A stretch of DNA of 64,000 nt from a marine group bacterium Sva0996 bin134 (GTDB taxonomy: Bacteria > Actinomycetota > Acidimicrobiia > Acidimicrobiales > Bin134): NCBI GenBank assembly GCA_002239105.1, contig MPNQ01000001.1, positions 124,001-188,000 of the forward strand, in the 5' to 3' direction. Positions within the stretch are counted from its first letter, which is position 1. Each line of letters starts with the position of its first letter. The notes under the pieces are model-generated. The model was not told where the DNA came from. It did not search any database and saw only the letters and a program-made list of their open reading frames with translations. The position numbers were made by a program, and so were the translations under genes. Below, piece by piece: positions 14,960 through 30,355 of this stretch.

Positions 14960-15772
14960 ATGCGCGAGACGCTGAAGGGCGTCCAAGACATCTTCGACGA
15001 GCGGGGCCCCACAGACGCCACGGCCACGTTCAACCGGCTGTGGTCTATCACCGAGGAGCTCATGGCCAAGATCGAGGCCCGGTTCGAGTTGACCCGCGAC
15101 CCGAGCACTGAGGATTTGGAGTCGTACCGGGGAGAGGCCGAGTACCCCGCCGGGCGGCTGGCCGGCTACACCGACCCGGAGATCGACTGGCTCGTCCACT
15201 CGTGGATCGGCAACCCTCCGCTGGGGTTCACCAACATGCACGTCACCGCCTGGCTGGGCCCCCACATCGATGTGCCCCATCTGGGCGTCGCCTGGGGAAC
15301 CCTTCCCGATCTGTGGTTCTACATCGACTTCAACCCCCGCTCCGATCTCATGCTCGACACCGAATCGCTCGACAAATACTGGGGGCCGCTCAACGAGGAG
15401 TTCTTGGAGCTTCGGGCCGACGAGGGGCTGGCGCCGTTCACTTCCCGGGCGCTGTACGTCCGCCAGGCGCTGAGCGAGGTGGCCATCTGCTTCACCACGC
15501 CGGAGGTCACCTACAACGAGGCCCGACTGGACCAGGTCAGCGATCTGGCCCACCGGCGGGTAGACCAGTGGCTGGCGTGGGTGGACGAGGCCGAGCCGGT
15601 GCCGGCTGAGCGCCGGAAAGAACTGGCGGACGCTGACCTGACCCGGCGGCGCAACATCGCCGAGAGAGATCCGGCCAATGTCATGGGGGTGCGTTTCTTC
15701 GGCGAGGAGATGACCGACCGTTTGGTGCGCGCCCTGTGGGGCGGCGACCGGGTGCTGCCCCGACCGATTTGA
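14960..15772 (+). CDS. Red chlorophyll catabolite reductase (RCCR)-like protein
   Basis: 270 residues. From memory of plant RCCR (ACD2), the order of conserved blocks matches: DWLVHSWIG near residue 75, a PHL block, DLWFYIDFNPRSDLMLD then LDKYWGPLNEE, a SRALYVRQALSE block, and a C-terminal RRRNIAERD...FFGEEMTDRLVRAL block like plant RRKSIEED...FGEEV..R+V.AI. Plant RCCR reduces an open-chain tetrapyrrole using ferredoxin and belongs to the bilin-reductase fold. It is first gene of an operon with a Rieske oxygenase, the same two-step order as plant pheophorbide oxygenase and RCCR. Enzyme activity is inference. Start ATG 14960, with CGGAG upstream. Confidence 0.72.
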   Translation: MRETLKGVQDIFDERGPTDATATFNRLWSITEELMAKIEARFELTRDPSTEDLESYRGEAEYPAGRLAGYTDPEIDWLVHSWIGNPPLGFTNMHVTAWLGPHIDVPHLGVAWGTLPDLWFYIDFNPRSDLMLDTESLDKYWGPLNEEFLELRADEGLAPFTSRALYVRQALSEVAICFTTPEVTYNEARLDQVSDLAHRRVDQWLAWVDEAEPVPAERRKELADADLTRRRNIAERDPANVMGVRFFGEEMTDRLVRALWGGDRVLPRPI

Positions 15773-15782
15773 GGGAGATCCC

Positions 15783-15830
15783 ATGTTGATCAAGAACTCG
15801 CATCGAATGAAGGGAAGGCCCGCATGTTGA
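15783..15830 (+). CDS. 15-codon leader ORF duplicating the Rieske start
   Basis: ATG at 15783, behind a strong GAGGGAG ribosome site, encodes MLIKNSHRMKGRPAC and stops at a TGA at 15828. That TGA lies inside ATGTTGA at the start of the Rieske gene (15824). The first 16 nt, CATGTTGATCAAGAAC, recur exactly at the true start. The leader is too short to be a functional protein. Either it couples Rieske translation to ribosomes finishing the leader, or it is a scar of a small duplication. Confidence 0.5.
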   Translation: MLIKNSHRMKGRPAC

Positions 15831-16963
15831 TCAAGAACCAGTGGTACGCCGTGGAATTCGGTCAGTGGGTGACCGACCAGCCGGTGCTGGCCCGGGTCCA
15901 CGGCCACGACCTGGTGCTGTGGCGCAGCCCCAACGGCACGGTAAACGCCCAGTCCGATCTATGCGTGCACCGGGGCGGCTCGCTGGCCGGCGGCTCGGTG
16001 GTGGGCGACTGCGTGCAGTGCCCCTACCACGGCTGGCGCTATGGCGCCGATGGGGCCTGCGTAGAGATTCCGGCCAACCGACAGGGCCTGCCCATTCCCA
16101 AGAAAGCCCGGGTCGACGCCTATCCCTGCATCGAGCGCTACGGCTTCGTGTGGGTGTTCTTGGGCGATTTGGCGCCCGAGTATCGGCCTCCGGTGCCGGA
16201 ATTGGAAGGACTCGACGAGCACACCGAGGCCAGGGCCGAGGGATACCGAGCGGTCGTCGGCGAGTTCACCTGGCAGGCCAACTACGACCGGGTGCTGGAG
16301 AATGCGGTGGACATTGCCCACACCCCCTTCGTGCACTCCGGCTCGTTCGGCAACAAGGACGAGCCCGAGATCCAAGACTTCGACCTCGACGAAACCCGCG
16401 TCAACGGCCACTTGGCGTCGGTCACCGCCACCGTGGAACTCGAACCGCCCCGCCCATCGGGCATGTGGCGGTTCATCTCCAAGAAGGACCGCCCGCCGGT
16501 GAGCACCACCACCGGGTTCTACCCGCCCAACGTCTCGATGCTCATCGTGCGGCTGCCCATGGGCGAGATCCGCATCTTCACCGCCGCGGTGCCCCGCGAC
16601 GAGCACGTCACCGTCTCTAAGTTCTGCATGCTGCGCACGTTCTTCACCGGGGGCTGGGCCGACAAGAACTCCTACGAGCGCACCATCAAGATCTTCAAGG
16701 AAGACCAGCCGACCGTTGAGGGCCAGCGCCCGGAGCTGCTGCCGTTCGACCTGTCAGCCGAGCTCCACGTCAAGTCCGACTCCATTCAGCTGGCCTACCG
16801 CCGCTGGCGCCAAGAGCAGATCGACAAGGGCTGGGCGCTCGAGACCCCGTCGGACGAGGAGTCCATGCGGGCCGCGGCGGTGATTCCCTCGCCGGCGCGC
16901 GCCGGCGACCCCGAGCTGGCCAACGCCTGGGTGTTCCCCACCGTGGGGGAGGTTGGTTCATGA
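15824..16963 (+). CDS. Rieske non-heme iron oxygenase, PAO/VanA-like
   Basis: 379 residues. The Rieske [2Fe-2S] ligands are Cys47, His49, Cys66 and His69 (CVHRGG, then CPYHGW). The mononuclear iron ligands are Asp163, His166 and His171 in ENAVDIAHTPFVHSGSFGN. That block resembles the single-component oxygenase branch containing VanA, chlorophyllide a oxygenase and pheophorbide a oxygenase. No C-terminal membrane anchor or CxxC is seen, unlike plant PAO. There is no adjacent reductase; electrons must come from elsewhere. Its place between an RCCR-like and a bilin-reductase-like gene suggests ring opening or hydroxylation of a tetrapyrrole. Its TGA overlaps the next ATG. Confidence 0.85.
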   Translation: MLIKNQWYAVEFGQWVTDQPVLARVHGHDLVLWRSPNGTVNAQSDLCVHRGGSLAGGSVVGDCVQCPYHGWRYGADGACVEIPANRQGLPIPKKARVDAYPCIERYGFVWVFLGDLAPEYRPPVPELEGLDEHTEARAEGYRAVVGEFTWQANYDRVLENAVDIAHTPFVHSGSFGNKDEPEIQDFDLDETRVNGHLASVTATVELEPPRPSGMWRFISKKDRPPVSTTTGFYPPNVSMLIVRLPMGEIRIFTAAVPRDEHVTVSKFCMLRTFFTGGWADKNSYERTIKIFKEDQPTVEGQRPELLPFDLSAELHVKSDSIQLAYRRWRQEQIDKGWALETPSDEESMRAAAVIPSPARAGDPELANAWVFPTVGEVGS

Positions 16964-17694
16964 GCCTGTCGGCCGATCTCTGCGTCGGCACGGTGGACGC
17001 CATCGCCGACCGCTTGGAGCTCGATGAGACCGTGAACACCCCGCTGGCCTCGGTTATGGATGGCTCGCCGGTGGGTGCCCATCGGGTGCTGGCCCGCGAC
17101 GGGGTGGCGGAACTGGTGTACGTGGGCATGACGGTGGAGGCCTTCGGGCTGGACAGCCACATGTGCTTCGCCTTCACGCCCGCGGCCAGCCCGGTGCCCC
17201 ACTTCACCGTGGACTCGGTGCTGGCCGGCCCTCACTATGCCTTCCACCTGGATCTGATCCCCCGGGTGGACCCGGGCGCCAACCTGGCCTACATCGACTA
17301 TTGCTACGGCCCCCTCACCGAGGTCCACGACGAGACCATGCAGATCGAGGGACTCACTCCCGCCCACCTTTCGCCCCGCCAGTGGCAGCTCATGTCGGCG
17401 TGGATGTTGGCCCACCGGGCCGACGAGGACGGCTTTCGGTCGGTGTTCGGTGCGGTGGCCTCCTACCGCGACCACTGGCTGGGCCTAGTGGTCGACGGCG
17501 TGCCCGAGTATGCCACCGGAGGGGCCACCGCCGAGCAACTGGCCGATCGCGACGCCCGCAACCGTGCTGCCATCTTCAATCCCGAGGTCGATCCCGTGTG
17601 GGCCCGAGTCGACCAACTGCTCGGCCCCGAGACGAGCGCCGACATCCAGGCCAGCTTGAAGACAGCGGCCCGTTCCCCGTCCACCCTGCAATGA
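16960..17694 (+). CDS. Ferredoxin-dependent bilin reductase/RCCR-fold protein (tentative)
   Basis: 244 residues, coupled to the Rieske gene by ATGA. The middle part, SPVPHFTVDSVLAGPHYAFH then LDLIPRVDPGANLAYID, resembles the central strand block of bilin reductases (PcyA/HY2 fold), where a P-x-F and an FH-x-DL pattern occur. The end, DRDARNRAAIFNPEVDPVWA, recalls their C-terminal N-x-R-x3-F helix. The similarity is weak, and I cannot identify the catalytic Asp/His. If correct, the operon holds two proteins of the open-chain-tetrapyrrole reductase fold. Otherwise it should be listed as an unknown oxidoreductase partner. Confidence 0.5.
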   Translation: MSLSADLCVGTVDAIADRLELDETVNTPLASVMDGSPVGAHRVLARDGVAELVYVGMTVEAFGLDSHMCFAFTPAASPVPHFTVDSVLAGPHYAFHLDLIPRVDPGANLAYIDYCYGPLTEVHDETMQIEGLTPAHLSPRQWQLMSAWMLAHRADEDGFRSVFGAVASYRDHWLGLVVDGVPEYATGGATAEQLADRDARNRAAIFNPEVDPVWARVDQLLGPETSADIQASLKTAARSPSTLQ

Positions 17695-17704
17695 TCGGAT
17701 CACC

Positions 17705-18646
17705 ATGAGCGATACTCAAGCCTCCGAGTGGCAGCAGCGCATCACCGGCGAGTGGTACGGCCTGCCGTCGGTATTCGACGCCGAGGGGAACCACACCGGG
17801 TTCAACAAGGTCAGCCGGGCCAGCGTGTTCGCCGACGGCAAGGTCACCTACTGGATGCAGTGCAACTTCATGAACACCGGCCCGCTTCGCAACCGGTTCG
17901 AGATCAAGGACTTTGAGTTCGGCGTGGACGACCGGGGCAACGACCGCATCTACCAGGGACCCGACTTCTACGGTGCCGGCCACCCCTATGGCTCGCTGGT
18001 GGACTCGCACTACTACGCGCCGGGGTGGCGGGCCGACCTCAACACCATGAACCAGATTCTGCCCGACGGCGTGACCCAGGTGTACTCGTCGCTGCTCTAT
18101 GAGGGCCCCACCATCTTCGCCGTATTCAACGGGGTGTATTTGAACGCCCACGACTACGACACCAACTCCGACACCAAGGCGTGGATCGACGCCCACATCG
18201 AGTCGGAGCGGGAGTTGGCCGCATGGCCCCACACCGTGCCCGACCGCACCGGGGGCACCTGGACCGGAGAGTGCGAGGTGTTCGGCGCCGACCAACAGCC
18301 AAAGGGAACCGTGAGCGTGCGCCTGCGCCACGACCCCATCGACCTGGTGCGCGCCACCCACACTCTGGAGCTATCCGGGGCCATCGACTACTCCCACACC
18401 TACATCCGCACCCGCTCCCACGGCAACCGCTACACCTACGACGGCCCCGACCTCTGGGGCAACGCCATCGCCTACGGCCGCGCCCTCTACACCTCCCAGC
18501 ACCACGTCAGCGAAGCATTCAAAGTCAAAGGCCGCGAGTTCATCATCGACCGCGACTACACCCTGGCCGTAGCCTGGAAGCTCCATTCCGGCGACCGCAT
18601 GACCGACATAGTCTTCGGCCCCCTCACCTTCACCCCCGACGCATAA
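17705..18646 (+). CDS. Two-domain lipocalin-like (DUF3598-type) protein
   Basis: 313 residues made of two similar halves, each beginning G-x-W-x-G (ITGEWYGLPSVFDAEGN; GGTWTGECEVFGAD) and carrying an aromatic-Y-x-GP block (RIYQGPDFYG; YTYDGPDLWG). No signal peptide or membrane segment is present. The pattern resembles calycin/lipocalin barrels of the DUF3598 type. Clear paralogues lie at 25127 and 25783, at the far side of the inserted island. Barrels of this kind often hold hydrophobic ligands; in cyanobacteria, CpcS/CpcT lipocalins hold bilins. It is last gene of the RCCR-Rieske operon, so ligand handling for linear tetrapyrroles is a natural guess. Confidence 0.6.
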   Translation: MSDTQASEWQQRITGEWYGLPSVFDAEGNHTGFNKVSRASVFADGKVTYWMQCNFMNTGPLRNRFEIKDFEFGVDDRGNDRIYQGPDFYGAGHPYGSLVDSHYYAPGWRADLNTMNQILPDGVTQVYSSLLYEGPTIFAVFNGVYLNAHDYDTNSDTKAWIDAHIESERELAAWPHTVPDRTGGTWTGECEVFGADQQPKGTVSVRLRHDPIDLVRATHTLELSGAIDYSHTYIRTRSHGNRYTYDGPDLWGNAIAYGRALYTSQHHVSEAFKVKGREFIIDRDYTLAVAWKLHSGDRMTDIVFGPLTFTPDA

Positions 18647-18710
18647 CACCGAAACCTGAGCCTTCCTGTAATTCCGGGGAAGATCAGAACGAGGACTACG
18701 TTGGAAAGTT

Positions 18711-21700
18711 GTGGGTAACCTGCGGTATCACCCCGTTGTAGGGGATGCGGACCGAGAAATAGACACGGTGCGGCCGGACCGGCTGCTAATCATTGGCGAA
18801 CGTGTGCCGGACTCCGTCTCGGTTGCTGCGGCTGCACGTCGGCGCGATGTGGCCGAAGTTCAGCTGCCGACGGGCGTGTACATATTCGATGACGGGACGC
18901 GAAACGAGGTCATGGTCGTCACCGATGGCACAGCCGCGGCGACTTCAGCCAACATAGATTGGGCTGAGGAGTCGCATCCGCTTCGCTCTGCGTATGACTG
19001 GTTGGGTGTCTGGTGGGATGACGCGGAGATAGTTCCCCAACCGCTGTTCGACATCGACTCGTCTGCGGTAATGCGAGGCGCTGGCCAAGAGGTGGTCGTG
19101 CGCCGACGAGACTTCGATCGAGGCAAGTGGTGGTACCAGGTCCGCAGCGATGGTCGCACCTTCACAGCCTCTGAGGCCGGCCTCCAGTTTCCTGAGATCG
19201 ATGATAATCCATACTTGTGGGTCACTCAGCCGCCTTCGCCCACAGATCGCTTCGCGGCCACCCTCACGCGGGCGAGGCTCCGAGAGCAACTCACCGACAC
19301 GGTCTATTCGTTTCGCGCAACCAAGACGATCTTCCGCGCCTATCAGTTCCGTCCTGTCATCCGACTCCTGGAAACCGGCGAACTTCGGCTCCTGATCGCT
19401 GATGAGGTCGGCCTTGGAAAAACCATCGAAGCCGGGCTTGTTTGGACCGAGCTTGATGCACGAAAGCAGGCGGACCGAGTTCTCGTTGTCTGCCCTTCGA
19501 TGCTTGTTCCGAAATGGCGTGCGGAGATGCGGGAACGCTTCGACTACGAGATGGTTGAACTTGATCGAACTCAACTCGATGAGATGTTGGAGCGGGTCTA
19601 CGAAGACCGATTGCCACAGCGGTTCGCGGGCATTTGCAGTCTCGAACGCTTACGGGTCTGGAATGGGCTCGAAGGATTCAACGAACTTGCCCCACGTTTC
19701 GACCTTGTGATCGTCGATGAAGCGCATGTATTCCGCAATTCGGAGACGAGGAGCCACGCCCTCGGCGTGCTGTTGTCCGAGTGGGCAGACGCCTTGATCT
19801 TCTTGTCGGCAACTCCGTTGAACCTGGGCAACGACGACTTGTTCAGCCTGTTGCAGCTTCTCGCTCCTGGGGAGTTCGACAACCATCATGTCCTTGAACA
19901 GCGCCTTGAGCCCAATGCCGTGCTGCACGAAGTGAGCGCCAGCTTCTTTGACCAGGACATGACCAATGCCGACCGGCTTCGCAAGTTGAAGGCTATCGAG
20001 TCGCTGGACTTTGGCCCCGCAGTTGCAGGGCGGCCCGAATACCGAGAGCTGACGTCGCTACTTGAAAGCGATGCGCTGTTGCCCGCACAGATCGCCCAGG
20101 CAAAGCGTCTGATCGCCCAGCTCCACGCGCTGTCCGCTGTTGTGACTCGAACCCGCAAAGTCGAAGTGCAAGAGAAGAAGGCAGTGAGGGAGGCAATTCC
20201 AATTCCCGTGACGATGACGGATGCAGAGGCCGAGTTCTACAACGCATTTGAACGGTGGCAATTTGATAGGGCCGAGGAATTGGGCCTGCCAGCGGGATTT
20301 GTGACCCAGATGCCGCGTCGACTTGCCAGTACATGCCTTCCGGCAGCCAGAGATCAGGTACTGAGTTGGTGGGAGGAGAACTGGGACGAGGAACTAGATG
20401 AAATTGACGAGGACGCCTTTTGGGACTTGACGGAACCCCCAGCTGAGGTTATTGAACTGGCACGGAGTCTGGGCGATGTAGACACCAAATTCGACGCCTT
20501 TGTAAAGGCGATGCGCCCCATCATCGATGGAGGACGTCGGGCGCTCGTGTTCACCTTCTCTCGCCGAGCGCTTCAGTATCTCAGCGACCGGATGAGTGAG
20601 GAATTCCGTATTGCAGTCATGCATGGCGGAGTCGACCGGGATACTCGGCACGAGATCATGCGGCGATTCCGCGACCATGACTTCGACGTCCTGCTGGCAA
20701 GTCGCGTAGCGAGCGAGGGCCTCGACTTCGAGTTCTGCTCGGCGGTAGTCAACTACGACCTCCCATGGAATCCGATGGAAGTCGAGCAACGGATCGGCCG
20801 TGTCGACCGCTTCGGCCAGACCGAGGAGAAGATCCTCGTATTGAACTTTCACACCCCCGGGACAATCGAGACAGACATTATCGAGCGGGTTCATCAGCGT
20901 ATCGGCGTCTTCAAGGACTCAATCGGCGAACTTGAACCGATTCTCCAGTCGAAGATGAGCGACCTTCGCCGCGACATGTTCGACTTCTCGCTGTCCGAAG
21001 AGGAGCGCACACGCAGGTTCGAAGAAACCCTGGCGGCAATTGAAGGGCAACGCCTGGCAATCGACGACGTCGAAGCGGCATCCTCCTACTTGTCGTCAAC
21101 CGACTCTGCGGAAATCGACGGTCTTGAGGAAGACCTCGAGTCGACTGGGAGGTATATCGGCCAGCCTGAGCTGGTCCTCCTGCTGCGCGATTGGGCGGCA
21201 TACACACCTGGGGCCTACTGCGAGGTCGACGAAAGCGGCACCCTTCTGATCTTTCGCGGAACCCCGGCAATGGAACCCCAGCTCCTGAGTCTCCAAACAG
21301 CAGGCGAGCGATCGCGAACAGAAATAGACCAACTGGCCAAAGCCATGCAGGACGAGCGAGAACTAGTGCTTTGCCTCGACCCGGAGCGCGCTCGAAAGTC
21401 CGGACACCAACTCCTCTCGGCGAACAGTCCGATGGTGCGAGCAGCTCTCCGGGTACCGGGGTCAGTTCAACCTCGATTCGGCCACCTAAGGGTTCAAAGC
21501 AGCGCCGTAGCACCGGGCTCGTACCTCGTCCTCGTGGCTGTGGCCCGATGGGTAGGGCTTCGACCCTCGGTCGAGTTCTGGACGGCAGCAGTCGACCTAG
21601 AAACCTGCGCCGTGACGAACCAGGACGTGGGATCGACCATCTTGGCAGGACTTGCAGAGGCTCGTTTGGGAGAGCAAGAAGTGAGTCCAGAAGTGGACCT

Positions 21701-22028
21701 CAATGCTCACTTGAGGGAGGCCGAAAGCGCGCTTCGTCGCCGGCAAGAGGAGGAGTCCGACCGTCGCGAAGCCATGAACCGTGCGCTTGTTGAGTCTCGG
21801 CGTATCAGCCTGCGGGAGACGCACGCCCGCAAGATTGCTCAGATTGAACGACGTATTGCGACGATGAAGGAAGGGGGAACCACTGATTGGATCCACCTAT
21901 TCGAATCGCAACTAGGGAAACAGGACCGGCTGCTTCGAGAAGCCGAGGAGAAACTAGAACAAAGTCTTGATGGCCGCATGGACGTGGAGAACATTGCAAT
22001 CTGCGTGGCGGAAGTGACTCCCGAATGA
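18711..22028 (+). CDS. RapA/DrmD-like SNF2 helicase-family ATPase
   Basis: 1105 residues from GTG 18711. The SNF2 core has Walker A at about residue 228 (LLIADEVGLGKTIEAGLVW), DEAH at about 333 (LVIVDEAHVFRNSETRSHAL), LIFLSATPLNLGNDDLFSLL, and the helicase C motifs VLLASRVASEGLDFE and NPMEVEQRIGRVDRFGQTE. GLGKTIEAGL and the RIGRVDRFGQ ending point to the RapA branch, which also includes DISARM DrmD. The C-terminal 300 residues end in a long charged coiled coil. It overlaps the next gene by 4 nt. G+C is visibly lower than in flanking genes. The RapA branch acts on stalled RNA polymerase; a defence role is the alternative. Confidence 0.85.
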   Translation: MGNLRYHPVVGDADREIDTVRPDRLLIIGERVPDSVSVAAAARRRDVAEVQLPTGVYIFDDGTRNEVMVVTDGTAAATSANIDWAEESHPLRSAYDWLGVWWDDAEIVPQPLFDIDSSAVMRGAGQEVVVRRRDFDRGKWWYQVRSDGRTFTASEAGLQFPEIDDNPYLWVTQPPSPTDRFAATLTRARLREQLTDTVYSFRATKTIFRAYQFRPVIRLLETGELRLLIADEVGLGKTIEAGLVWTELDARKQADRVLVVCPSMLVPKWRAEMRERFDYEMVELDRTQLDEMLERVYEDRLPQRFAGICSLERLRVWNGLEGFNELAPRFDLVIVDEAHVFRNSETRSHALGVLLSEWADALIFLSATPLNLGNDDLFSLLQLLAPGEFDNHHVLEQRLEPNAVLHEVSASFFDQDMTNADRLRKLKAIESLDFGPAVAGRPEYRELTSLLESDALLPAQIAQAKRLIAQLHALSAVVTRTRKVEVQEKKAVREAIPIPVTMTDAEAEFYNAFERWQFDRAEELGLPAGFVTQMPRRLASTCLPAARDQVLSWWEENWDEELDEIDEDAFWDLTEPPAEVIELARSLGDVDTKFDAFVKAMRPIIDGGRRALVFTFSRRALQYLSDRMSEEFRIAVMHGGVDRDTRHEIMRRFRDHDFDVLLASRVASEGLDFEFCSAVVNYDLPWNPMEVEQRIGRVDRFGQTEEKILVLNFHTPGTIETDIIERVHQRIGVFKDSIGELEPILQSKMSDLRRDMFDFSLSEEERTRRFEETLAAIEGQRLAIDDVEAASSYLSSTDSAEIDGLEEDLESTGRYIGQPELVLLLRDWAAYTPGAYCEVDESGTLLIFRGTPAMEPQLLSLQTAGERSRTEIDQLAKAMQDERELVLCLDPERARKSGHQLLSANSPMVRAALRVPGSVQPRFGHLRVQSSAVAPGSYLVLVAVARWVGLRPSVEFWTAAVDLETCAVTNQDVGSTILAGLAEARLGEQEVSPEVDLNAHLREAESALRRRQEEESDRREAMNRALVESRRISLRETHARKIAQIERRIATMKEGGTTDWIHLFESQLGKQDRLLREAEEKLEQSLDGRMDVENIAICVAEVTPE

Positions 22029-24055
22029 CCGAGAACAAGCTTGATCCGGCCCGCCAAGCTGTGCTTGACGCTGAGCGCGCCATCAACGAGCAATACCAGG
22101 ACGAGATCAGGCGGCTACTTGCAAGGCAACCTGGGCTCATCAAGCAAGTAGCAATCACCCAAAGCCAGCAGTGGACTGAGTCATCGCTTCCTCGCCCAGA
22201 AATTGATAGCACTGCGACCACCGCGATTATCGGCCGGGTAGCGCTCAATAGGGATCATCCATACTCCGACGACCTGGGCCAGACCTTCTACATCGCAGGC
22301 TGGCGCATCAAGAATGACGGTCTTGAGACGGTCAACTGGGCCGCACCAGTCGCCAGCTTGTTCTTTGAAGGGCGTTCCTCGGTGTACCCGATTGCCTCCT
22401 CTCTAAGGGGGCGGCGAACATTCGTACAGCGCCGCGACGACCTAATCGACTACTCCGACGAGATCGAGCACGACACCTCTGCCGACCCATTCAAGAGTTT
22501 GACGCGCCACCTAGAGATCCCAGCAGCGCCAACACGACACAGCCCGATATCGGAACCCGACGAGAAAAGGTACAAATCGACGGGTCCCCATCCGGCCGAT
22601 CGCCATGAAACGCCGACCATTGAACCTGGCGGCCAACTTGTAGCTGCGTCCTTCGCAGTGGACAAAGGCCGATTTGCGGGTATTCGCGCAGCCGACGCGG
22701 TGGCAAGGGTCGTTCAGGAACCGAAACGAGGCCGCATGGGGCCAGTTCTGCCAACCATGCAACCAGACCAGTACCGGCATGTATCTGCCCCCAGCGACCG
22801 TGGGCTCATAGTCCAAGGACAGCCAGGAACGGGCAAGACGGTCATTGCGTTACATCGAGCCATCTACCTCTCGAGTCAGGAGCGCGGCTCCAACCGAATC
22901 GCGCGCCTCGCGATTATCGGCCCGTCTGAAGGCTATACCGAATATGTGAGGCCGATCCTTGACGAGTTGTCGGAACCAGGCGCCACGATCGATGTCTTCA
23001 GCCTTCCGGACCTGCTGCGGTCGATTTCTGGGCTCAGCTCTTTTCCAATATACGGACCCATCAGCCAGATTGAGTGTTCGTGGGAACTTGGTAGGGTGAT
23101 CGACAAGTTCGTCAGGGCCATGGCCCAACGCCCCAAGTCGGGACGAATCTACCCTCGCGTTCGCCAAGTGGTCGAGGCCTTGAAGCGGGCCAACGAGTCT
23201 GAAGTAGCCGATGCGGAGGTTCTGGCCTGGATCCGAGCTCTGCCCAACTGGAATGAGGTCTTGGCGCAGATTCGCTATCTGCCAATGCTCGCCACCATTG
23301 CCTTAGCACTTGATCCTCGACCGGTCAGTGAACGGTTCAGCCATCTTATTGTTGACGAAGCACAAGACATCCGGCCCTTGGAATGGCGCATCATCACCAC
23401 CTCTTTGCTAGAGCCTGGTGGCTCCCTCTCGCTGTTCGGGGACGTGAACCAGCGACGGTCGGACTGGACGGCTCTATCTTGGCACCAGCTGGCAGTTGAC
23501 CTTGAGATGACCGACGAACATGGCCGATTTCTCGTACAAGAACTTGGGAAGGGGTTTCGTTCGTCGAAACAGATACTCAGGTTCGCCAACCAGTTGCTGC
23601 CTCGAGGCAAGAGGAATGAGCATGCGCTTCAAGACGGGCCAAAGCCCACGGTATTGAAGGTATCTCCAGACAGCCTCATTACCGCTGCCGTCGATTCAGC
23701 TATCGAGCTCACGAGCCGCCACTTAGGAGTCGTGGCGGTTATCTGTGCTGAGCCGAGGCCAGTGTGGCTGGAGTTCAGGAGGCGAGCCTGGACTCGGGGC
23801 AGAAACCAGCACAACTGGACACTGGACGACGCTACTGTCGTAGCCCTTCGCCACGATCAGGCACGCGGCCTCGAGTTCGATGCCGTCGTCGTTGTAGAGC
23901 CAGGGGCGTTTCCAACGACAGAGACTCTGAACGATACGACCACAGAGAACGTGGGAAGGCACGGGGTGCTTTACACAAGCCTCACTAGGGCCAACAAAGA
24001 GCTCACAGTCGTCCACTCCCAGCGGCTCCCACGACATCTCCGCCCTCCGCGTTGA
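22025..24055 (+). CDS. HelD-like superfamily I ATPase
   Basis: 676 residues. A short N-terminal coiled coil (about 8-45) is followed by a block like HelD, DLGQTFYIAGWRI, then ETVNWAAPVASLFFEG and RRTFVQRRDD. Walker A is at about residue 264 (VQGQPGTGKTVIALHRA), motif II at about 443 (IVDEAQDIRPLEWR), then LFGDVNQRR, FRSSKQILRFANQLLP and QARGLEFDAVVVVEPG. HelD/HelR ATPases remove RNA polymerase from DNA, and some protect it from rifampicin. It is translationally coupled to the RapA-like gene, so two ATPases whose relatives both act on RNA polymerase are made together. A plain UvrD-type repair helicase cannot be excluded. Confidence 0.72.
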   Translation: MTENKLDPARQAVLDAERAINEQYQDEIRRLLARQPGLIKQVAITQSQQWTESSLPRPEIDSTATTAIIGRVALNRDHPYSDDLGQTFYIAGWRIKNDGLETVNWAAPVASLFFEGRSSVYPIASSLRGRRTFVQRRDDLIDYSDEIEHDTSADPFKSLTRHLEIPAAPTRHSPISEPDEKRYKSTGPHPADRHETPTIEPGGQLVAASFAVDKGRFAGIRAADAVARVVQEPKRGRMGPVLPTMQPDQYRHVSAPSDRGLIVQGQPGTGKTVIALHRAIYLSSQERGSNRIARLAIIGPSEGYTEYVRPILDELSEPGATIDVFSLPDLLRSISGLSSFPIYGPISQIECSWELGRVIDKFVRAMAQRPKSGRIYPRVRQVVEALKRANESEVADAEVLAWIRALPNWNEVLAQIRYLPMLATIALALDPRPVSERFSHLIVDEAQDIRPLEWRIITTSLLEPGGSLSLFGDVNQRRSDWTALSWHQLAVDLEMTDEHGRFLVQELGKGFRSSKQILRFANQLLPRGKRNEHALQDGPKPTVLKVSPDSLITAAVDSAIELTSRHLGVVAVICAEPRPVWLEFRRRAWTRGRNQHNWTLDDATVVALRHDQARGLEFDAVVVVEPGAFPTTETLNDTTTENVGRHGVLYTSLTRANKELTVVHSQRLPRHLRPPR

Positions 24056-24363
24056 TCGCGCTAGTTGGAGGTCCACCAACCTCGATGTAGAGGAAGGTAG
24101 ACGCGGAAAAGGAAGATGGAGTGACAGTGTGTTGGTAGAACTAAAGAGTGCTTTGGGTGATCTCCAGTCCCGGTTCTCGGACTCGTTGTCAATCACCTGG
24201 CCGGGGCCATTGACCGAGCACCGACAACGATCGCTCGTGGTAGCCGAGGTATTCGGCGAAATCGGTACTGGTGGCTCCGTCCAAGACTGACGGAGGTCGT
24301 TGATAGTCGGGGTCTCTCGTGAGGGAAAGATCCTTTGGATGGGAGAGAGCAGCTTTGCAACAG
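24056..24363. other. Gap inside the island, no clear gene
   Basis: 308 bp between the convergent HelD-like and NYN genes. A 78-codon minus-strand frame (24189-24425) overlaps the NYN 3' end but has no recognisable features. No convincing hairpin-plus-T-run terminator was seen. It may be decayed coding DNA or the island's 3' flank. Confidence 0.4.
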
Positions 24364-24996
24364 CTATGACGAATAGGGGAAGTAGTCGGTGTCGTCGCGT
24401 ATGAGGTCGAACTGACTCTTGTCAAGACAATGGTTCCAGATATTGCGACCGGGGAGCCTCAGCTGGCCGCGGGGAGACTTCGGTATCCACCAGGTGGCGG
24501 TCTCGACACGCTTTCCCACATGCACTGCGTCCTCCAATGCAGGACCGAAATCGGAATCAGCAGAGGCGATGATCGCGACGTCATAGGCGTTGTTTCGAGC
24601 GCCTACGGAGATGTCCAAGGCCATCATCACATCCACTCCCTTTTCCTTCGCTATCCAATCGGATTCATGGCCCGGCTCTGAGGCCCGGTGGTACTTCAGA
24701 GGTCGAGTGCGGACCGTGACGCCAGGCATCTGTCCCCAGACTGCCACCTGTCGGTCAAATGACCGGCTGAGTTTCACCCCACTGCGGCTGTCGGGCTGGC
24801 CGCGGTACACCCGGACTCCGGCCAGAACGCGATGAGGATCCTTGATCCTGCCGAGATCGCAGAGCAGCTCGCCGAGGCGGAGAGGATGAATGCTGCCTAG
24901 TGGTGATGGGGCTTCGTCCGAAGGGAAGAACAGGTCGCGGGCACTGTGGTAGACGTTCTGGTAGTCGATGAAAACGACAACTCGGGTGTCAGGCAT
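24364..24996 (-). CDS. NYN-domain (PIN-like) nuclease
   Basis: 210 residues from ATG 24996 (MPDTRVVVFIDYQNVYHSAR); the frame is open to 25101, but upstream residues are not family-like. Acidic active-site positions are the Asp in FIDYQNVY, the Asp pair region in KGVDVMMALDISVG and the SADSDF motif (VAIIASADSDFGPALEDA). NYN/LabA proteins are metal-dependent RNases. It converges on the HelD-like gene and shares the island's lower G+C. With two RNA-polymerase-type ATPases it would add RNA cleavage to the module, if the three genes belong together, which is inferred only from position and composition. Confidence 0.85.
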   Translation of the reverse strand: MPDTRVVVFIDYQNVYHSARDLFFPSDEAPSPLGSIHPLRLGELLCDLGRIKDPHRVLAGVRVYRGQPDSRSGVKLSRSFDRQVAVWGQMPGVTVRTRPLKYHRASEPGHESDWIAKEKGVDVMMALDISVGARNNAYDVAIIASADSDFGPALEDAVHVGKRVETATWWIPKSPRGQLRLPGRNIWNHCLDKSQFDLIRDDTDYFPYSS

Positions 24997-25126
24997 CGCA
25001 ACATAGGCCTTTAAACGATAAACCCCCGCCATGCCCTGCGGAGCAGGCCAGACGGGGAAGATTGGCATCACCCTATCTACAAATGCGGCTCCTTTCAACA
25101 CTCATGTGGAAATTGCATCCCGGTGC

Positions 25127-25786
25127 CTAGCCCACAGTCACCAAGACTGAGCGGCTTCCATCTTCCACGTCTTCGGTGATCTCGATGCTGGATGCTCCGA
25201 TGGGGTCGCGCATGGCCCAGAGGCGGCGGTGGTGCGATGGGGAGGGTTGGTCGGCGGCTACCAGCATGGGGCCGACGCAGCGGCGTAGGGGCCATTGATC
25301 GCCCGCCTTGGGTGGTGGTGCTGTCAGGTCGAGGCGGGGCTCCTCACCGGAGGCTTCGGGGACGGCTACTCCCACGATGTCGGCTACCGACCGGCCGGCC
25401 AGGGAGAAGAAACCGCCGGTGAGCTGGCGGTCGGGGGCCACTAGGACGGAGTAGGACTCGAACTCGTAGCCGAAGCGGGGCCAGAGCCCTTGTCCGGTGA
25501 GGGCACCGGGCTGCCACAGGGTGCCGAAGCCCACAACATCGGGGCCGAGATAGCGACGTTGGGTCCCGTCCACCTCTAGCTCGAAAACCCACTCGCCCGA
25601 GAAGGCGGCCATGGGGTGACCGGCTAGTTGGGGCGATGGGTGGCACCGTTGGGTTACCAGCAGTCGGCCCTCTCCAGCTGGCTCCACAATCCGGCGCTGG
25701 GCCACCTCGCCGCGAAACGTGCCGTCGGGGTCGTAGACGTACTCGTTGATCAGCCAGTCGCCGCCGAAGCGGTCTTTCTTGCTCAT
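25127..25786 (-). CDS. Lipocalin-like (DUF3598-type) protein, paralogue 2
   Basis: 219 residues from ATG 25786, which overlaps the stop of the upstream paralogue (ATGA). It begins FGGDWLINEYVYDPDGTFRG, carries the family block RRYLGPDVVGFGT and later WPRFGYEFESYSVLV. It is similar in layout to the N-terminal half of the proteins at 17705 and 25783. Last gene of a four-gene minus-strand operon that starts at motif site D. No catalytic residues are identifiable. Ligand binding or isomerisation of a pathway intermediate is possible. Confidence 0.58.
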   Translation of the reverse strand: MSKKDRFGGDWLINEYVYDPDGTFRGEVAQRRIVEPAGEGRLLVTQRCHPSPQLAGHPMAAFSGEWVFELEVDGTQRRYLGPDVVGFGTLWQPGALTGQGLWPRFGYEFESYSVLVAPDRQLTGGFFSLAGRSVADIVGVAVPEASGEEPRLDLTAPPPKAGDQWPLRRCVGPMLVAADQPSPSHHRRLWAMRDPIGASSIEITEDVEDGSRSVLVTVG

Positions 25787-26685
25787 GCCGGTTCGAAGGC
25801 CAAGGCTCCGTAGGCCGCTCCCAGTCGCTGCTCGCCCCGATACCAGATGTGGAGCACCGCCTTCATGCTGCCGTCCCGCGACACCACTTCCCGCCGCCAC
25901 ACTCGGAGCCCTCCTGAGAGGAGGTGGAGCTGGCCGCTGAAGCCCCGGCCGCCACTGAGGCTGCCGCTGCCCATCAGATCACCCTCCGGTGTCCACGCCG
26001 TCCAGCCGTCCGACAACAGGGGGAACGACAGCCCCGATGAGTAGTCAGCCCCTGATAGTTCCACTTCCCAAGAGCCGTCTTTAGCAGCAACCGCCTCCGC
26101 ATAGTCATCTGCGCCGGTCGGTGTGTACTTGGCGTCGAGGCGGTGCAGTTGGCCCGACCAGCGGCCGGGCCGGAGCAACAAGAGCTCACCTCGGCCTGCG
26201 GTTGGGTCGTCTCGCAACACCTGGGCATCCATCTCCGCCACAGGGGGAGGCACGGGATCCGACGGGTCGACCTGGCGCTGGTATTCCCCCACCACCGCCC
26301 ATTGGAGCCGATCACCCCGGCTGAGCAAGGCCAGCGAGAGCTGGCGGGTGCCGTCGGGCAGCACCATCAGAAAGAAGCGCTGCGAAAGCCCCAGGTCGGG
26401 CCAGTAGTTGTGGGCGGCGACCAGGCCGTCGCCCAGCGCCTCGGCATAGCCGATGTTGAGGGGCCCCTCGTAGGTGCGATGCGAGCCGTGGTCGGCAATG
26501 GTGTAGACCCCCGACAGGGAGAACGGCCCGTCGAACTCGACCTCCACCGTCACCCGTCCGGCCTGGTCGTCGGCCTTCACCGATCGGGTGTCGCGCCCTA
26601 TTCCGGCAAAGCGACCGTTTGCGTCGTAGACCTCGGCCGCGCCGATCCATTCTCCAACTCCTTGGGAGAACGACCCTTGGCTCAC
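25783..26685 (-). CDS. Two-domain lipocalin-like protein, paralogue 3
   Basis: 300 residues with the same two-half layout as the protein at 17705: VGEWIGAAEVYDANGRFAG and HRTYEGPLNIGYAEALGDGL in the first half, PGRWSGQLHRLDAK and VELSGADYSSGLSF in the second, ending AAYGALAFEPA. The 17705 protein ends DIVFGPLTFTPDA in the same position. The two are evidently paralogues although their operons lie 7 kb apart and face each other. It is coupled to both neighbours by 4-nt overlaps. No signal peptide. Confidence 0.6.
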   Translation of the reverse strand: MSQGSFSQGVGEWIGAAEVYDANGRFAGIGRDTRSVKADDQAGRVTVEVEFDGPFSLSGVYTIADHGSHRTYEGPLNIGYAEALGDGLVAAHNYWPDLGLSQRFFLMVLPDGTRQLSLALLSRGDRLQWAVVGEYQRQVDPSDPVPPPVAEMDAQVLRDDPTAGRGELLLLRPGRWSGQLHRLDAKYTPTGADDYAEAVAAKDGSWEVELSGADYSSGLSFPLLSDGWTAWTPEGDLMGSGSLSGGRGFSGQLHLLSGGLRVWRREVVSRDGSMKAVLHIWYRGEQRLGAAYGALAFEPA

Positions 26686-27500
26686 ATCCGGACCAGGCGC
26701 ACTGTCTGGGTGTCCACCGGGGTGGCGGCCAGCACCGGGCCGAGGTCGGCACCGGGAGGCTGGGGGGCCAGATACCGGCCCTCGGTGGCCAGCTCAAGCC
26801 CGTCTTCGGCAAACGGGTAGGGATCCAGCCCGTAGACCCCTCCGGGACGCTCGACCACCGAGATGGTCACGTCGTCGCCCACCGCCCGGGGCACGTTGGG
26901 GAAGTCGGAGGCGCCCCGCTCGCCCTCAGGGGCCAAGTGGAAGTACAGGGAGATGGTGTCGAAGAACTGGAGCTGCTTGTAGGCGTGGAACAGGTATTCG
27001 TCGGCGGCGTGGTCGGGATCGTCGACGGCCAACCGCTCCTTCAGGCGGCGCTGGCGGCCTTCCTCGTTGCCCAGCATGGCGTCGACCTCGGGACGCAGCT
27101 CGTCGGGGATCACGTCCAAGAAGATCTTGTCGCTCAACCCGTATCGCCCCCGGTACAGGCCATAGGTGTGCATCGAAGAGATGATGCCGCTGAACGGATG
27201 ATGGTCCTCGTTGAATGCCGGTGATCCCGCCGATGTGGTCACAATCTGGGGCAGCGGGGTGGCGGTCAGGTTGTAGGGCAGCCCGGTGTCGGGGTTCTGA
27301 GGAGCCTGGGCGTCGAGGGCGGCCCAGCCCTGGTCGTGGTGGTCGACGATAAACTGCATCGGCTCGGCTGGCGCCAGCCCGTCGAACTCGTCGTTGCCGA
27401 AGTTGGCGGCCAGCGACCCGGCGAAGGCGGTGTGCTGGTGCATGGCGATCACGAAGTGGGGGGCGTCGGCGTTCCCTCCGGGGGCGCTTTGGACGATCAT
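26682..27500 (-). CDS. DUF3891 family protein
   Basis: 272 residues from ATG 27500 (MIVQSAPGG). HFVIAMHQHTAFAGSLAANFG and FIVDHHDQGWAALDAQAPQN match the DUF3891 pattern, in which an H-x-x-H region and a D-x-x-GW segment probably form an HD-like all-helical site. A later block is KIFLDVIPDE, then KQLQFFDTISLYFHLAP. Function is unknown in the family. It sits between two lipocalin-like genes with 4-nt overlaps on each side, so it very likely works in the same step. Confidence 0.7.
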   Translation of the reverse strand: MIVQSAPGGNADAPHFVIAMHQHTAFAGSLAANFGNDEFDGLAPAEPMQFIVDHHDQGWAALDAQAPQNPDTGLPYNLTATPLPQIVTTSAGSPAFNEDHHPFSGIISSMHTYGLYRGRYGLSDKIFLDVIPDELRPEVDAMLGNEEGRQRRLKERLAVDDPDHAADEYLFHAYKQLQFFDTISLYFHLAPEGERGASDFPNVPRAVGDDVTISVVERPGGVYGLDPYPFAEDGLELATEGRYLAPQPPGADLGPVLAATPVDTQTVRLVRM

Positions 27501-27979
27501 GGCCGCTGCACCCGAGTGAAGTCTTGAATCTGGAAAAGGTTGGTGGCGCCGTCGCGCACCTTGTGGGTGATGATGCGGCGGGTGTCGGGGTCCAAGAAGT
27601 AGTGGTTGTTGTAGACGATGTTGTTGCTCACCCGGCTGTCGATGGTGAAGACGTAGTTGTACGGCGTGAGCTCGGCGCCTTCGAGGCTGAGCTGGTCGCT
27701 GTCGGCGAAGCACCGCTTGCCGTCAACCCCGATTGGGGTGTCGAAGATGGTCTCGCCCACGCCGTAGAGGTTCTCGAAGTGCTCGTGCAGGTGCCAGGTG
27801 TTGTCGTCGAGCCAGTACACGTCCATGTGAACGGCGCTGGATTCGAGGAAATCGCCTTGAGGGCTGAAGCTCTTGCACAGCCCCTCCCAGTGGCCCATGA
27901 AGCACTGATAAGGACGAGACGAGGCCGGGCCGTAGTTCTTGGTGTCGCTCACCCTGGAAATCGTAGAGTGTGGAGACAT
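27497..27979 (-). CDS. Small lipocalin-like (DUF3598-type) protein
   Basis: About 160 residues from ATG 27979; a GTG at 27952 (VSDTKNYGPASSRPYQCFMG) is equally likely, since the ATG lies only 6 bp from motif site D. The single barrel-like domain starts GHWEGLCKSFSPQGDFLE and continues WLDDNTWHLHEHFENLYG. It resembles the N-terminal half of DUF3598-type proteins. First gene of the operon 27497, 26682, 25783, 25127, divergent from the chlorophyllase-like hydrolase. Confidence 0.62.
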   Translation of the reverse strand: MSPHSTISRVSDTKNYGPASSRPYQCFMGHWEGLCKSFSPQGDFLESSAVHMDVYWLDDNTWHLHEHFENLYGVGETIFDTPIGVDGKRCFADSDQLSLEGAELTPYNYVFTIDSRVSNNIVYNNHYFLDPDTRRIITHKVRDGATNLFQIQDFTRVQRP

Positions 27980-27984
27980 CAAAT

Positions 27985-28010
27985 GAAACTGTGTTCCTCT
28001 GAGCGGAACA
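27985..28010. promoter_or_regulatory. Shared 26-bp operator motif, site D
   Basis: The sequence reads GAAAC, TGT, GTTCC, TCTGAGC, GGAACA, a full match to the consensus. It lies in the divergent gap between the lipocalin-like operon and the alpha/beta hydrolase (start 28032), so it could control both directions. Confidence 0.75.
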
Positions 28011-28031
28011 TCTTGTGAGGAGAAGCACCGC

Positions 28032-28991
28032 ATGATAGTCCGGGGACTGCATTTCTCTTTTGCCGCCCACCAGGACGCTGCGCTGGCCACGCTGTACTAC
28101 CCGGGTGACGACCAGCGGCTGGGGGAGGCCCGACTGACCGGGCAGGTACCGGCCCTGGCGACCGATGCCCCGTGGCCGGTGGTTGTGCTCGCTCCCGGCA
28201 TAAACGTTGCTCCCGACGGCTACCGCTGGTTGGCTCATCGGCTCGTGCCCTCCGGGCTGTGCGTGGTGACCTATGCGGCCATCGGCTCGCTGGGACCGGC
28301 CGGGCGGGGCATCACCCCGGGCCTCGACTTGGCTGCCCTGGCCCCCGACACCATCGGCACCCGTCCATCGGCCACCGCACTCGGCCCTCTGCTGGCGGCC
28401 CTGGCCGAGATGTCCGGCGCCGACGACACTGCTGTAGCCGGGCACCTGGACCTTTCCCGCGTGGTGGTGGGCGGCCATTCGGCGGGGGGCGCGATGGCGC
28501 TGCACAACAGCGATCCGGGGTGGGTGTCGGGCTTGCAGGCAGTGTTCGCCTACGCCGCCCACACCATGGTTGCCACCACATTGGGCCATGGTGAGGCCAC
28601 GGTCGCACCAGTGCCGGCCAAGGTGCCGGTGATGCTGCTGGGCGGGGCCGACGACGGGGTAATCGCCGCCAGCCGCGACCGCTATCGAGGCGATGAAGGC
28701 ATCCATGACCCTGTTCGCCGGACGTTCGCAGAGGCCATCGACCGCCAAGACGGGGACTCGTGGCTGGTCGAGCTGGCCGATGCGGGCCATTTCGCCATCT
28801 GTCGGCCGGTGGACGCCACCAGCGGCCGCTCCTTTCTGGAGCCGGGCGCCGCCGGGGCCAACTCGGGCGTCGGGGAACTGCTCGGCGACCTCATTGCCGC
28901 GTTCACCGCCGACTCTTTGGGGCGACCCGCCGCTCTCAGCCTGGAGCGCCTAGTCGGGCACCAATTGGTCCAGCACTGGGATCGGCGCTAG
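28032..28991 (+). CDS. Alpha/beta hydrolase, chlorophyllase-like
   Basis: 319 residues with GAGGAGAAG upstream of ATG 28032. VVVLAPGINVAPDGYRWLAH, LDLSRVVVGGHSAGGAMAL (nucleophile Ser150), LGGADDGV (Asp near 205) and ELADAGHFAICR (His near 252) give a complete triad. The GHSxGG elbow preceded by a hydrophobic VVVGG strand, and the whole layout, resemble chlorophyllase and related PET-hydrolase-type esterases. In plants chlorophyllase or pheophytinase removes phytol before ring opening. That role fits the neighbours but is inferred. No signal peptide is evident, so it probably acts in the cytoplasm. Confidence 0.7.
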   Translation: MIVRGLHFSFAAHQDAALATLYYPGDDQRLGEARLTGQVPALATDAPWPVVVLAPGINVAPDGYRWLAHRLVPSGLCVVTYAAIGSLGPAGRGITPGLDLAALAPDTIGTRPSATALGPLLAALAEMSGADDTAVAGHLDLSRVVVGGHSAGGAMALHNSDPGWVSGLQAVFAYAAHTMVATTLGHGEATVAPVPAKVPVMLLGGADDGVIAASRDRYRGDEGIHDPVRRTFAEAIDRQDGDSWLVELADAGHFAICRPVDATSGRSFLEPGAAGANSGVGELLGDLIAAFTADSLGRPAALSLERLVGHQLVQHWDRR

Positions 28992-29039
28992 CCCGTCGCG
29001 CCAATGGGCATGGCGAGAGTGCGGACACAAGCCGGCCGG

Positions 29040-29420
29040 CTACGCGGCCTCGGCGGAGGGCGGATCGATCTTCAACACGACCTCGATTCGGGCCAAGCGT
29101 TCGCCGTGGTCCTTGAAGCCATCGTAGACCTCCTTGCGAAGATCGGTCAGATGGCCGGTGAACTTGTCGGTGAGCCTGACTTCAAGGTCGCTGATCTGGC
29201 CGGTGAACTTGTCGGTGAGCCTGACTTCAAGGTCGCTGATCTGGCCGGTGAACTTGGTGTCCAAGTTGTGGATTGAGGCGTTGACTTGCTCGAAACCGGA
29301 TTCGATCTTGGCCTGGTTGTTACGCTGCACGGCCAAGATGTGGTACATGAGCGCGCCGATCACCGACGCGATCAAGATGGCAGATCCACCGATTGTCGAA
29401 CTCAGAATCGCAGTGTTCAT
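29040..29420 (-). CDS. Small N-anchored coiled-coil membrane protein
   Basis: 126 residues from ATG 29420, preceded by GAGGGAG at a good distance; the open frame extends to 29504 without support. One membrane segment (TAILSSTIGGSAILIASVIG) is followed by a heptad-rich coiled coil containing two exact copies of a 15-residue unit (GQISDLEVRLTDKFT). The tail reads RIEVVLKIDPPSAEAA. No enzyme motif. A similar design, with the anchor at the other end, is seen at 56792. Function unknown; a structural or scaffold role is possible. Confidence 0.7.
   Translation of the reverse strand: MNTAILSSTIGGSAILIASVIGALMYHILAVQRNNQAKIESGFEQVNASIHNLDTKFTGQISDLEVRLTDKFTGQISDLEVRLTDKFTGHLTDLRKEVYDGFKDHGERLARIEVVLKIDPPSAEAA
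29153..29242 (-). repeat. Two perfect 45-bp tandem copies in the coiled-coil gene
   Basis: Copies at 29153-29197 and 29198-29242 are identical, with a further 14-nt partial copy after them. Each encodes 15 residues, slightly more than two heptads, so copy-number change alters stalk length without breaking the frame. Confidence 0.92.
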
Positions 29421-29548
29421 TCGAACTCCCTCAAAGGGGTTTGAAGAGGGGGAAGTGAACAAACACACCCTACCAGGCTGGCCAGCTATTTCAACTGGGC
29501 CCACGCTGAGGTGAGCACCGTCGTAGCATCTGGGAAGAGGGGGACAAA

Positions 29549-30355
29549 GTGACCAAGCGCATCGTCATCACCGGTAGCACAAGGGGTATCGGCAACGGGT
29601 TGGCCCGCGAGTTCTTGAAACGGAGATGCCAAGTGGCTGTGAGCGGCCGCTCGCCCGGCCAGGTACACGAGGTGGTGGCCGATCTGGGCCAGTACTACGG
29701 CGAGTCCAAGGTCTGCGGCACGGCGTGCGATGTCACCGACCCTGAACAGCTCCAGGAGCTGTGGGACAGCGCGGCCAACACCTTCGGCGGCGTCGACGTA
29801 TGGATCAACAACGCGGGCATCAGCATCGGCCGCCAGCCGCTGTGGGAGCAGCGCGACCACGACCTGGCCGCGCTGGTCGCTACCAACCTCACCGGCGCGC
29901 TGCTGGCCAGCAAGACGGCCATTGCCAACATGGTGCGCCAAGGCCACGGCCAGGTTTGGAACACCGAGGGATTCGGCTCCGACGGGGCCACTCAGGCCGG
30001 CATGGCCGCCTACGGGGCCACCAAGCGGGCAGTGCGCTACTTGCAGAGGGCCCTGGGCAAGGACACCGCCGACACTCCCGTGCAGGTGTGCACCGTGTCA
30101 CCGGGCATCGTGGTGACCGACCTGCTCACCGGCGACTACGACCTCACCTCTGAGCAGTGGGAGAAGTCCAAGAAGATCTTCAACATCCTGGGCGACCACG
30201 TCCACACCGTCACCCCCTGGCTGGCCGACCACATCCTGGCCGCCGACAAGTCGGGCGCCCGAGTGGTGTGGCTCACCCGGCGCAAGGCCTTCGCCCGGTT
30301 CATGACCGCCTCGTTCCGACGGCGTGATCTGTTCACTCAGGTGGAAGGGGCGTGA
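29549..30355 (+). CDS. Short-chain dehydrogenase, chlorophyll b reductase (NYC1/NOL)-like
   Basis: 268 residues from GTG 29549. NAD(P) loop TGSTRGIG (8-15), Asn-Asn-Ala-Gly at 87-90 in DVWINNAG, Asn113 in TNLTGALL, and Tyr155/Lys159 in AAYGATKRAV. Features recalled from plant NYC1/NOL recur: ITGSTRG followed by LAREFL, TACDVTDPEQL, WINNAGISIGRQPL, a GQVWNTEGFGSDG block (plant H+FNMDGAGSGG), SPGIVVTDLL and a late KKIFNIL segment. NYC1/NOL reduce the 7-formyl group of chlorophyll b. The match is stronger than to generic SDRs, but activity is inferred. It has no copy of the 26-bp motif upstream and converges on the transporter operon with a 23-bp overlap. Confidence 0.72.
   Translation: MTKRIVITGSTRGIGNGLAREFLKRRCQVAVSGRSPGQVHEVVADLGQYYGESKVCGTACDVTDPEQLQELWDSAANTFGGVDVWINNAGISIGRQPLWEQRDHDLAALVATNLTGALLASKTAIANMVRQGHGQVWNTEGFGSDGATQAGMAAYGATKRAVRYLQRALGKDTADTPVQVCTVSPGIVVTDLLTGDYDLTSEQWEKSKKIFNILGDHVHTVTPWLADHILAADKSGARVVWLTRRKAFARFMTASFRRRDLFTQVEGA

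Follow-up and report, generated by a model that had tools for sequence, protein, structure and literature searches.

The 64,000-nucleotide stretch of the marine group bacterium Sva0996 bin134 genome analysed here (the window) contains an island of three genes within a catabolic cluster. On the forward strand, a GTG-initiated gene for an SNF2 ATPase (18711..22028; 1105 aa; Pfam SNF2 and Helicase_C) with RapA/BrxHII architecture is followed by an ATG-initiated gene for a HelD-like SF1 ATPase (22025..24055; 676 aa) with a reduced secondary-channel arm and a shortened clamp-arm region, and the two reading frames overlap by 4 nt (ATGA). Facing this pair on the reverse strand is a gene for an NYN-domain RNase-like protein (24364..24996 from its ATG, or to 25101 from an upstream GTG; Pfam NYN, 1.3e-12), which also has a weak match to the PADLOC model HEC-09. 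An earlier note on this DNA had described the three genes as a low-G+C island dividing the catabolic cluster, and both parts of that description hold. The G+C content between 18.5 and 25 kb is 57-60%, as against 66-67% on both flanks. Five congeneric genomes (L305-L309) match the window by blastn at 82-91% nucleotide identity up to position 18645/18646 and again from 25115-25125. Because they align up to, and then beyond, both edges, the three genes constitute exactly one insert of 6.5 kb (18647..25124) that is absent from all five.

The insert sits between two convergent stop codons of the cluster, and in L305 and L307 the two convergent flanking genes touch at the empty site. It encodes only the SNF2, HelD-like, and NYN proteins. 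No integrase was found among its open reading frames and Pfam matches, no tRNA lies near it, and reading of the junctions revealed no inverted repeat at its ends; a single 10-bp direct repeat (18675/25053) most likely arose by chance. Besides the pair region, the insert contains no further recognised defence gene. The split cluster (14960-18646 and 25127-30355), which is kept in part across the five congeners, encodes a red chlorophyll catabolite reductase family protein (14960-15772, PF06405) and a Rieske oxygenase (15824-16963) upstream of the insert and a DUF3891 protein (26685-27359), an alpha/beta hydrolase (28032-28991), and a short-chain dehydrogenase (29549-30355) downstream of it. From its predicted products, the cluster looks like one for tetrapyrrole or chlorophyll breakdown.

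The SNF2 protein has the domain architecture of RapA, according to both its structural model and fold searches. RapA is the top match in a profile search of the PDB and, as entry 6bog, the top Foldseek match of the AlphaFold model (5e-33). In that model, an SH3/Tudor-like barrel (residues ~118-154) precedes the helicase core (~209-745), and a C-terminal alpha+beta domain carries a long coiled-coil insert (~997-1084); model confidence is moderate for both proteins of the pair (mean pLDDT of 71 and 74). The motifs DEVGLGKT, DEAH, and QRIGRVDRFGQ are intact. The protein nonetheless scores below the NCBIfam RapA cut-off (158 versus 576 bits), and while DrmD is its nearest PADLOC model (438 bits), it also falls under the cut-off of the NCBI DrmD equivalog (300 versus 610 bits). 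Likeness to RapA does not by itself imply that RNA polymerase is the target, because BrxHII of type 3 BREX, a DNA-acting defence helicase, has the same architecture (PMC12839542).

Descent of the second protein from HelD is well supported by sequence comparison, since the HelD-specific N-terminal globular domain aligns (profile positions 5-143 with residues 4-144 of Mycobacterium smegmatis HelD, 26.5 bits). Searched against the PDB, the family profile scores 207 bits with M. smegmatis HelD, 171 with Bacillus subtilis HelD, and 58 with UvrD, and the top Foldseek match of the model is 6yxu_H. VIA-align also ranks M. smegmatis HelD first, but UvrD rows are close in Z, so that the core common to both is not enough to tell them apart. 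SF1 motifs I, II, III, V, and VI are conserved (GQPGTGKT, VDEAQD, GDMNQRRSD, RGLEFD, and LYTSLTRA).

What has been reduced are the parts that a canonical HelD inserts into RNA polymerase. In M. smegmatis, the secondary-channel arm comprises HelD residues 1-69, and a large clamp-opening insert in domain 1A spans residues 261-503 (PMC7749160); a DWR motif is reported to be absolutely conserved in HelD (PMC8655204). In the pair protein only the first arm helix (8-34) is predicted, and the second is replaced, in the members read, by a Pro/Gly-rich stretch with 1-7 prolines per 40 residues; the corresponding segment of the host's own HelD has none. DWR is absent at its place from every aligned member, where an [NS]WAAP-type sequence stands instead of DWRAP. 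Walker A and DEAQ lie 175-210 aa apart across the family (179 in the window) versus 269 aa in the host HelD, so that about 60-95 residues are missing from the stretch with the clamp-opening domain. With the second arm helix, DWR, and much of the clamp-opening insert gone, canonical eviction of RNA polymerase by this protein is doubtful. The earlier note's suggestion of a release of stalled polymerase is thus weakened. Its proposal of antibiotic tolerance has nothing behind it beyond kinship to HelR, for which the protein scores 111 bits against an NCBIfam cut-off of 750.

The coupling of the two genes, which the earlier note had singled out, is conserved and specific to one clade. The HelD-like gene directly follows the SNF2 gene in 26 of the 26 intact clade loci with enough downstream sequence, spanning three or more actinobacterial orders, and its start codon lies exactly at -4 nt in 21 of them. 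In a 27th pair locus (L296), frameshifts break both genes. The SNF2 proteins of the pair loci form a single clade with a support of 1.0, and a HelD-like neighbour was found at none of 157 SNF2 loci outside that clade in genome and viral collections, some on short contigs. Pairwise identities of the two proteins correlate across the 26 loci (r = 0.92), a value to which host relatedness contributes. Within the window's order, strong relatives of the HelD-like protein are scattered over 11 of 298 genomes, in which an SNF2 homologue lies directly upstream wherever the contig allowed reading. Further genomes with the pair come from two other actinobacterial orders, and wider contig searches added, among the matches listed, Mycobacterium sp. 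1245111.1, Agrococcus lahaulensis, and Arthrobacter agilis, such that the species with the pair are at least those listed. Elsewhere, the pair neighbours serS, isochorismatase and enoyl-CoA hydratase genes, or an amidohydrolase gene. The empty site in five congeners, these unrelated sites, and the scattered presence show that the pair is laterally mobile. Phage- or plasmid-borne versions were sought in IMG/VR, PLSDB, and INPHARED; the matches listed comprise distant SNF2s or canonical HelD/HelR only and include no full-length pair. The open-access literature yielded no HelD partner of an SNF2 protein in defence, and one may be described elsewhere. The two-gene module is real and conserved, and it is apparently undescribed.

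Enrichment near defence genes, proposed as a check of the earlier idea, was also observed. Of 20 pair loci, 14 have a strong defence gene (E ≤ 1e-40) no more than 7 kb away, compared to at most 3 of 20 control regions (Fisher p = 0.001); the controls are a small set, placed at fixed coordinates and drawn from many of the same genomes, one of their matches is to a GlgB-like model, and the library of defence models dates from 2023. The neighbours are of many types. PDC-S68 directly follows the pair at L047 and L291. Within about 10 kb are DISARM DrmMI/DrmD (L054), DrmD-like plus type IIG genes (L282), DpdD plus DrmD (L292), type I (L293) and type III (L294) restriction, type IV restriction with a DruE-like gene (L295), DruE-like alone (L290), HEC-05 (L284), HEC-06-like (L285 and L287), type IIG (L041 and L043), AIPR (L043, with a close relative in L045 by BLAST), and a cytosine methyltransferase (L296). 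No neighbour was recognised as a defence gene at several pair loci, among them that of the window and the majority of those from its order.

Two further gene groups were seen during this survey. Downstream of the pair at L035 (321-7819), genes on one strand encode an ATPase like SbcC, a phosphoesterase like SbcD, a protein with weak likeness to HerA/Mad8, and an unknown protein, possibly constituting another uncharacterised system. At L257 (7693-9861), a gene of the HelD-like family (713 bits) occurs without SNF2, near a giant Hhe/PDC-S37-like protein.

We consider that the SNF2 and HelD-like genes form one laterally mobile two-gene operon and, with moderate confidence, that it is most likely an actinobacterial antiphage module; the best reading is a module in the style of ARMADA and DISARM that is a member of neither. 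Operon structure and co-variation suggest that the two proteins may form one complex. The RapA/BrxHII-type SNF2 motor would sense invading double-stranded DNA, or DNA with stalled complexes on it, and track along it, with the HelD-derived SF1 motor as its partner ATPase. Neither protein has a recognised nuclease domain, and the pair has no modification gene of its own. Without cutting the invader, the two motors together might block its replication or transcription, as in helicase-based defence of the ARMADA type II kind.

The strongest competing explanation is that the pair targets RNA polymerase, as expected of a transcription-targeting system. The closest solved relatives of both proteins are RNA-polymerase recyclers, and the N-terminal globular domain and motor of HelD are conserved. 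Set against this are the losses in the HelD-like protein described above (the second helix of the secondary-channel coiled coil, DWR, and part of the clamp-arm region), the retention by the host of a canonical, DWR-bearing HelD of its own on contig C14, and the fact that the RapA architecture is common to DNA-acting defence helicases. Given the reduction of the arms that would be inserted, direct eviction of RNA polymerase is possible without being favoured, and we regard polymerase targeting as rather unlikely. Of the earlier idea of a transcription-targeting antiphage module, the antiphage half gains from defence enrichment and mobility, while the mechanism is doubtful.

Less probable still is that the pair is a mobile operon for DNA repair or conflict resolution, non-immune and merely accumulating in variable genomic regions. 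Unrelated genes do gather in genomic islands, and several pair loci adjoin metabolic or housekeeping genes; however, the variety of defence genes near the pair loci, and their scarcity in the control regions, argue for the antiphage module instead.

The SNF2 protein might alternatively be a stray DrmD or ArmA whose DISARM or ARMADA partners were lost or are encoded elsewhere. Its top PADLOC model and its match to the NCBI DrmD model point in that direction, but the latter score is less than half of the cut-off, and the bona fide DrmD beside DrmMI is far off in the tree and coexists with the pair at L054. Furthermore, no MZB/DUF1998 protein (PF09369) was detected in the whole genome (94% complete), compared to detection in 8 of 14 control genomes. 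This explanation is therefore very improbable. Membership in DISARM or ARMADA was rejected on these grounds, and the SNF2 protein, checked for a place in another characterised system, belongs to neither.

It is hardly credible that the NYN RNase, which the earlier note had grouped with the pair, acts as effector in a system of three genes: it shares the insert and a similarly low G+C content with the pair, but no NYN homologue occurs in any of the other pair loci, and independent copies without the pair exist in the same genus. NYN genes were found in 11 of 198 genomes of the order without the pair, often as several copies in the window's genus (G000 C28:13252-13869, G150 C12 and C32, and two in G176), a multi-copy, scattered family that behaves as if independently mobile. 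The NYN gene is a passenger of the insert, and only the SNF2-HelD-like part of the proposed three-gene association recurs across genomes.

If confirmed, the antiphage module would be a compact, unnamed two-gene defence system of actinobacteria, including mycobacteria. It would mean that immunity has drawn on the HelD family, otherwise associated with RNA-polymerase recycling and rifampicin resistance, and that the polymerase-inserting arms were reduced along the way. RapA and HelD are reported to be mutually exclusive between bacteria (PMC8666675), which is why targeting of RNA polymerase would be striking. It is conceivable, though we think it improbable, that RapA-type SNF2 and HelD lineages have merged into one immune module, itself mobile, which strips transcription complexes from phage DNA or blocks them there.

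Comparison with named systems places the pair beside several of them and within none, in agreement with the earlier statement that the combination is not a recognised one. With class II HelD of M. smegmatis, its top profile and fold match, the HelD-like protein shares an intact SF1 motor and a homologous N-terminal globular domain; it differs in lacking DWR and the second arm helix, in its much shorter clamp-opening/primary-channel insert, and in being encoded in a mobile operon with SNF2. The SNF2 protein resembles Escherichia coli RapA and BrxHII (PMC12839542) in its core, N-terminal SH3/Tudor-like barrel, and C-terminal alpha+beta domain with a coiled-coil insert, yet it belongs to its own clade with a HelD-like partner and lies far under the RapA model threshold, and the insert has no BREX genes. 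DISARM class 1 has an SNF2 protein of the same wider group in DrmD, whereas the insert lacks DrmA, DrmB, DrmC, and a methyltransferase, and its SNF2 protein forms a separate clade. The antiphage operon of ARMADA type II likewise encodes both a RapA/BrxHII-like SNF2 protein and a UvrD-like SF1 helicase (PMC12458937); its ArmD, however, is GajB-like with a RelE domain, and the YprA-like ArmC and PglX-like ArmB methyltransferase are absent from the insert. ARMADA type II is a precedent in that it requires all of its helicases, although the YprA helicase and methyltransferase are needed too (PMC12458937).

In other pairs, an SNF2 protein closely related to this one adjoins another ATPase, there Hsp70-like or Sacsin/HSP90-like and here HelD-like. 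The sister clade of the pair SNF2s (L259 and L286) has an Hsp70-like gene in place of the HelD-like gene (an Hsp70/actin-fold ATPase-like protein at L259 11032-12687, Pfam HSP70). More distant SNF2 clades have either an Hsp70-like partner (Hsp70/actin-fold ATPase-like proteins at L048 12717-14186, L053 12858-14267, and L129 11168-12403, with a DFGT motif recognised by eye) or a Sacsin-domain HSP90-like ATPase encoded after the SNF2 gene (L297 10999-14121 and L130 10855-14106, PF25794; L278 3-1367); L129 is a viral contig. As related SNF2 clades carry these other ATPases, the comparison suggests a general design in which a RapA-like SNF2 sensor or translocase works with an interchangeable ATPase as its partner, be it HelD-like, Hsp70-like, or Sacsin-like, a design that would make the role of the partner directly testable.
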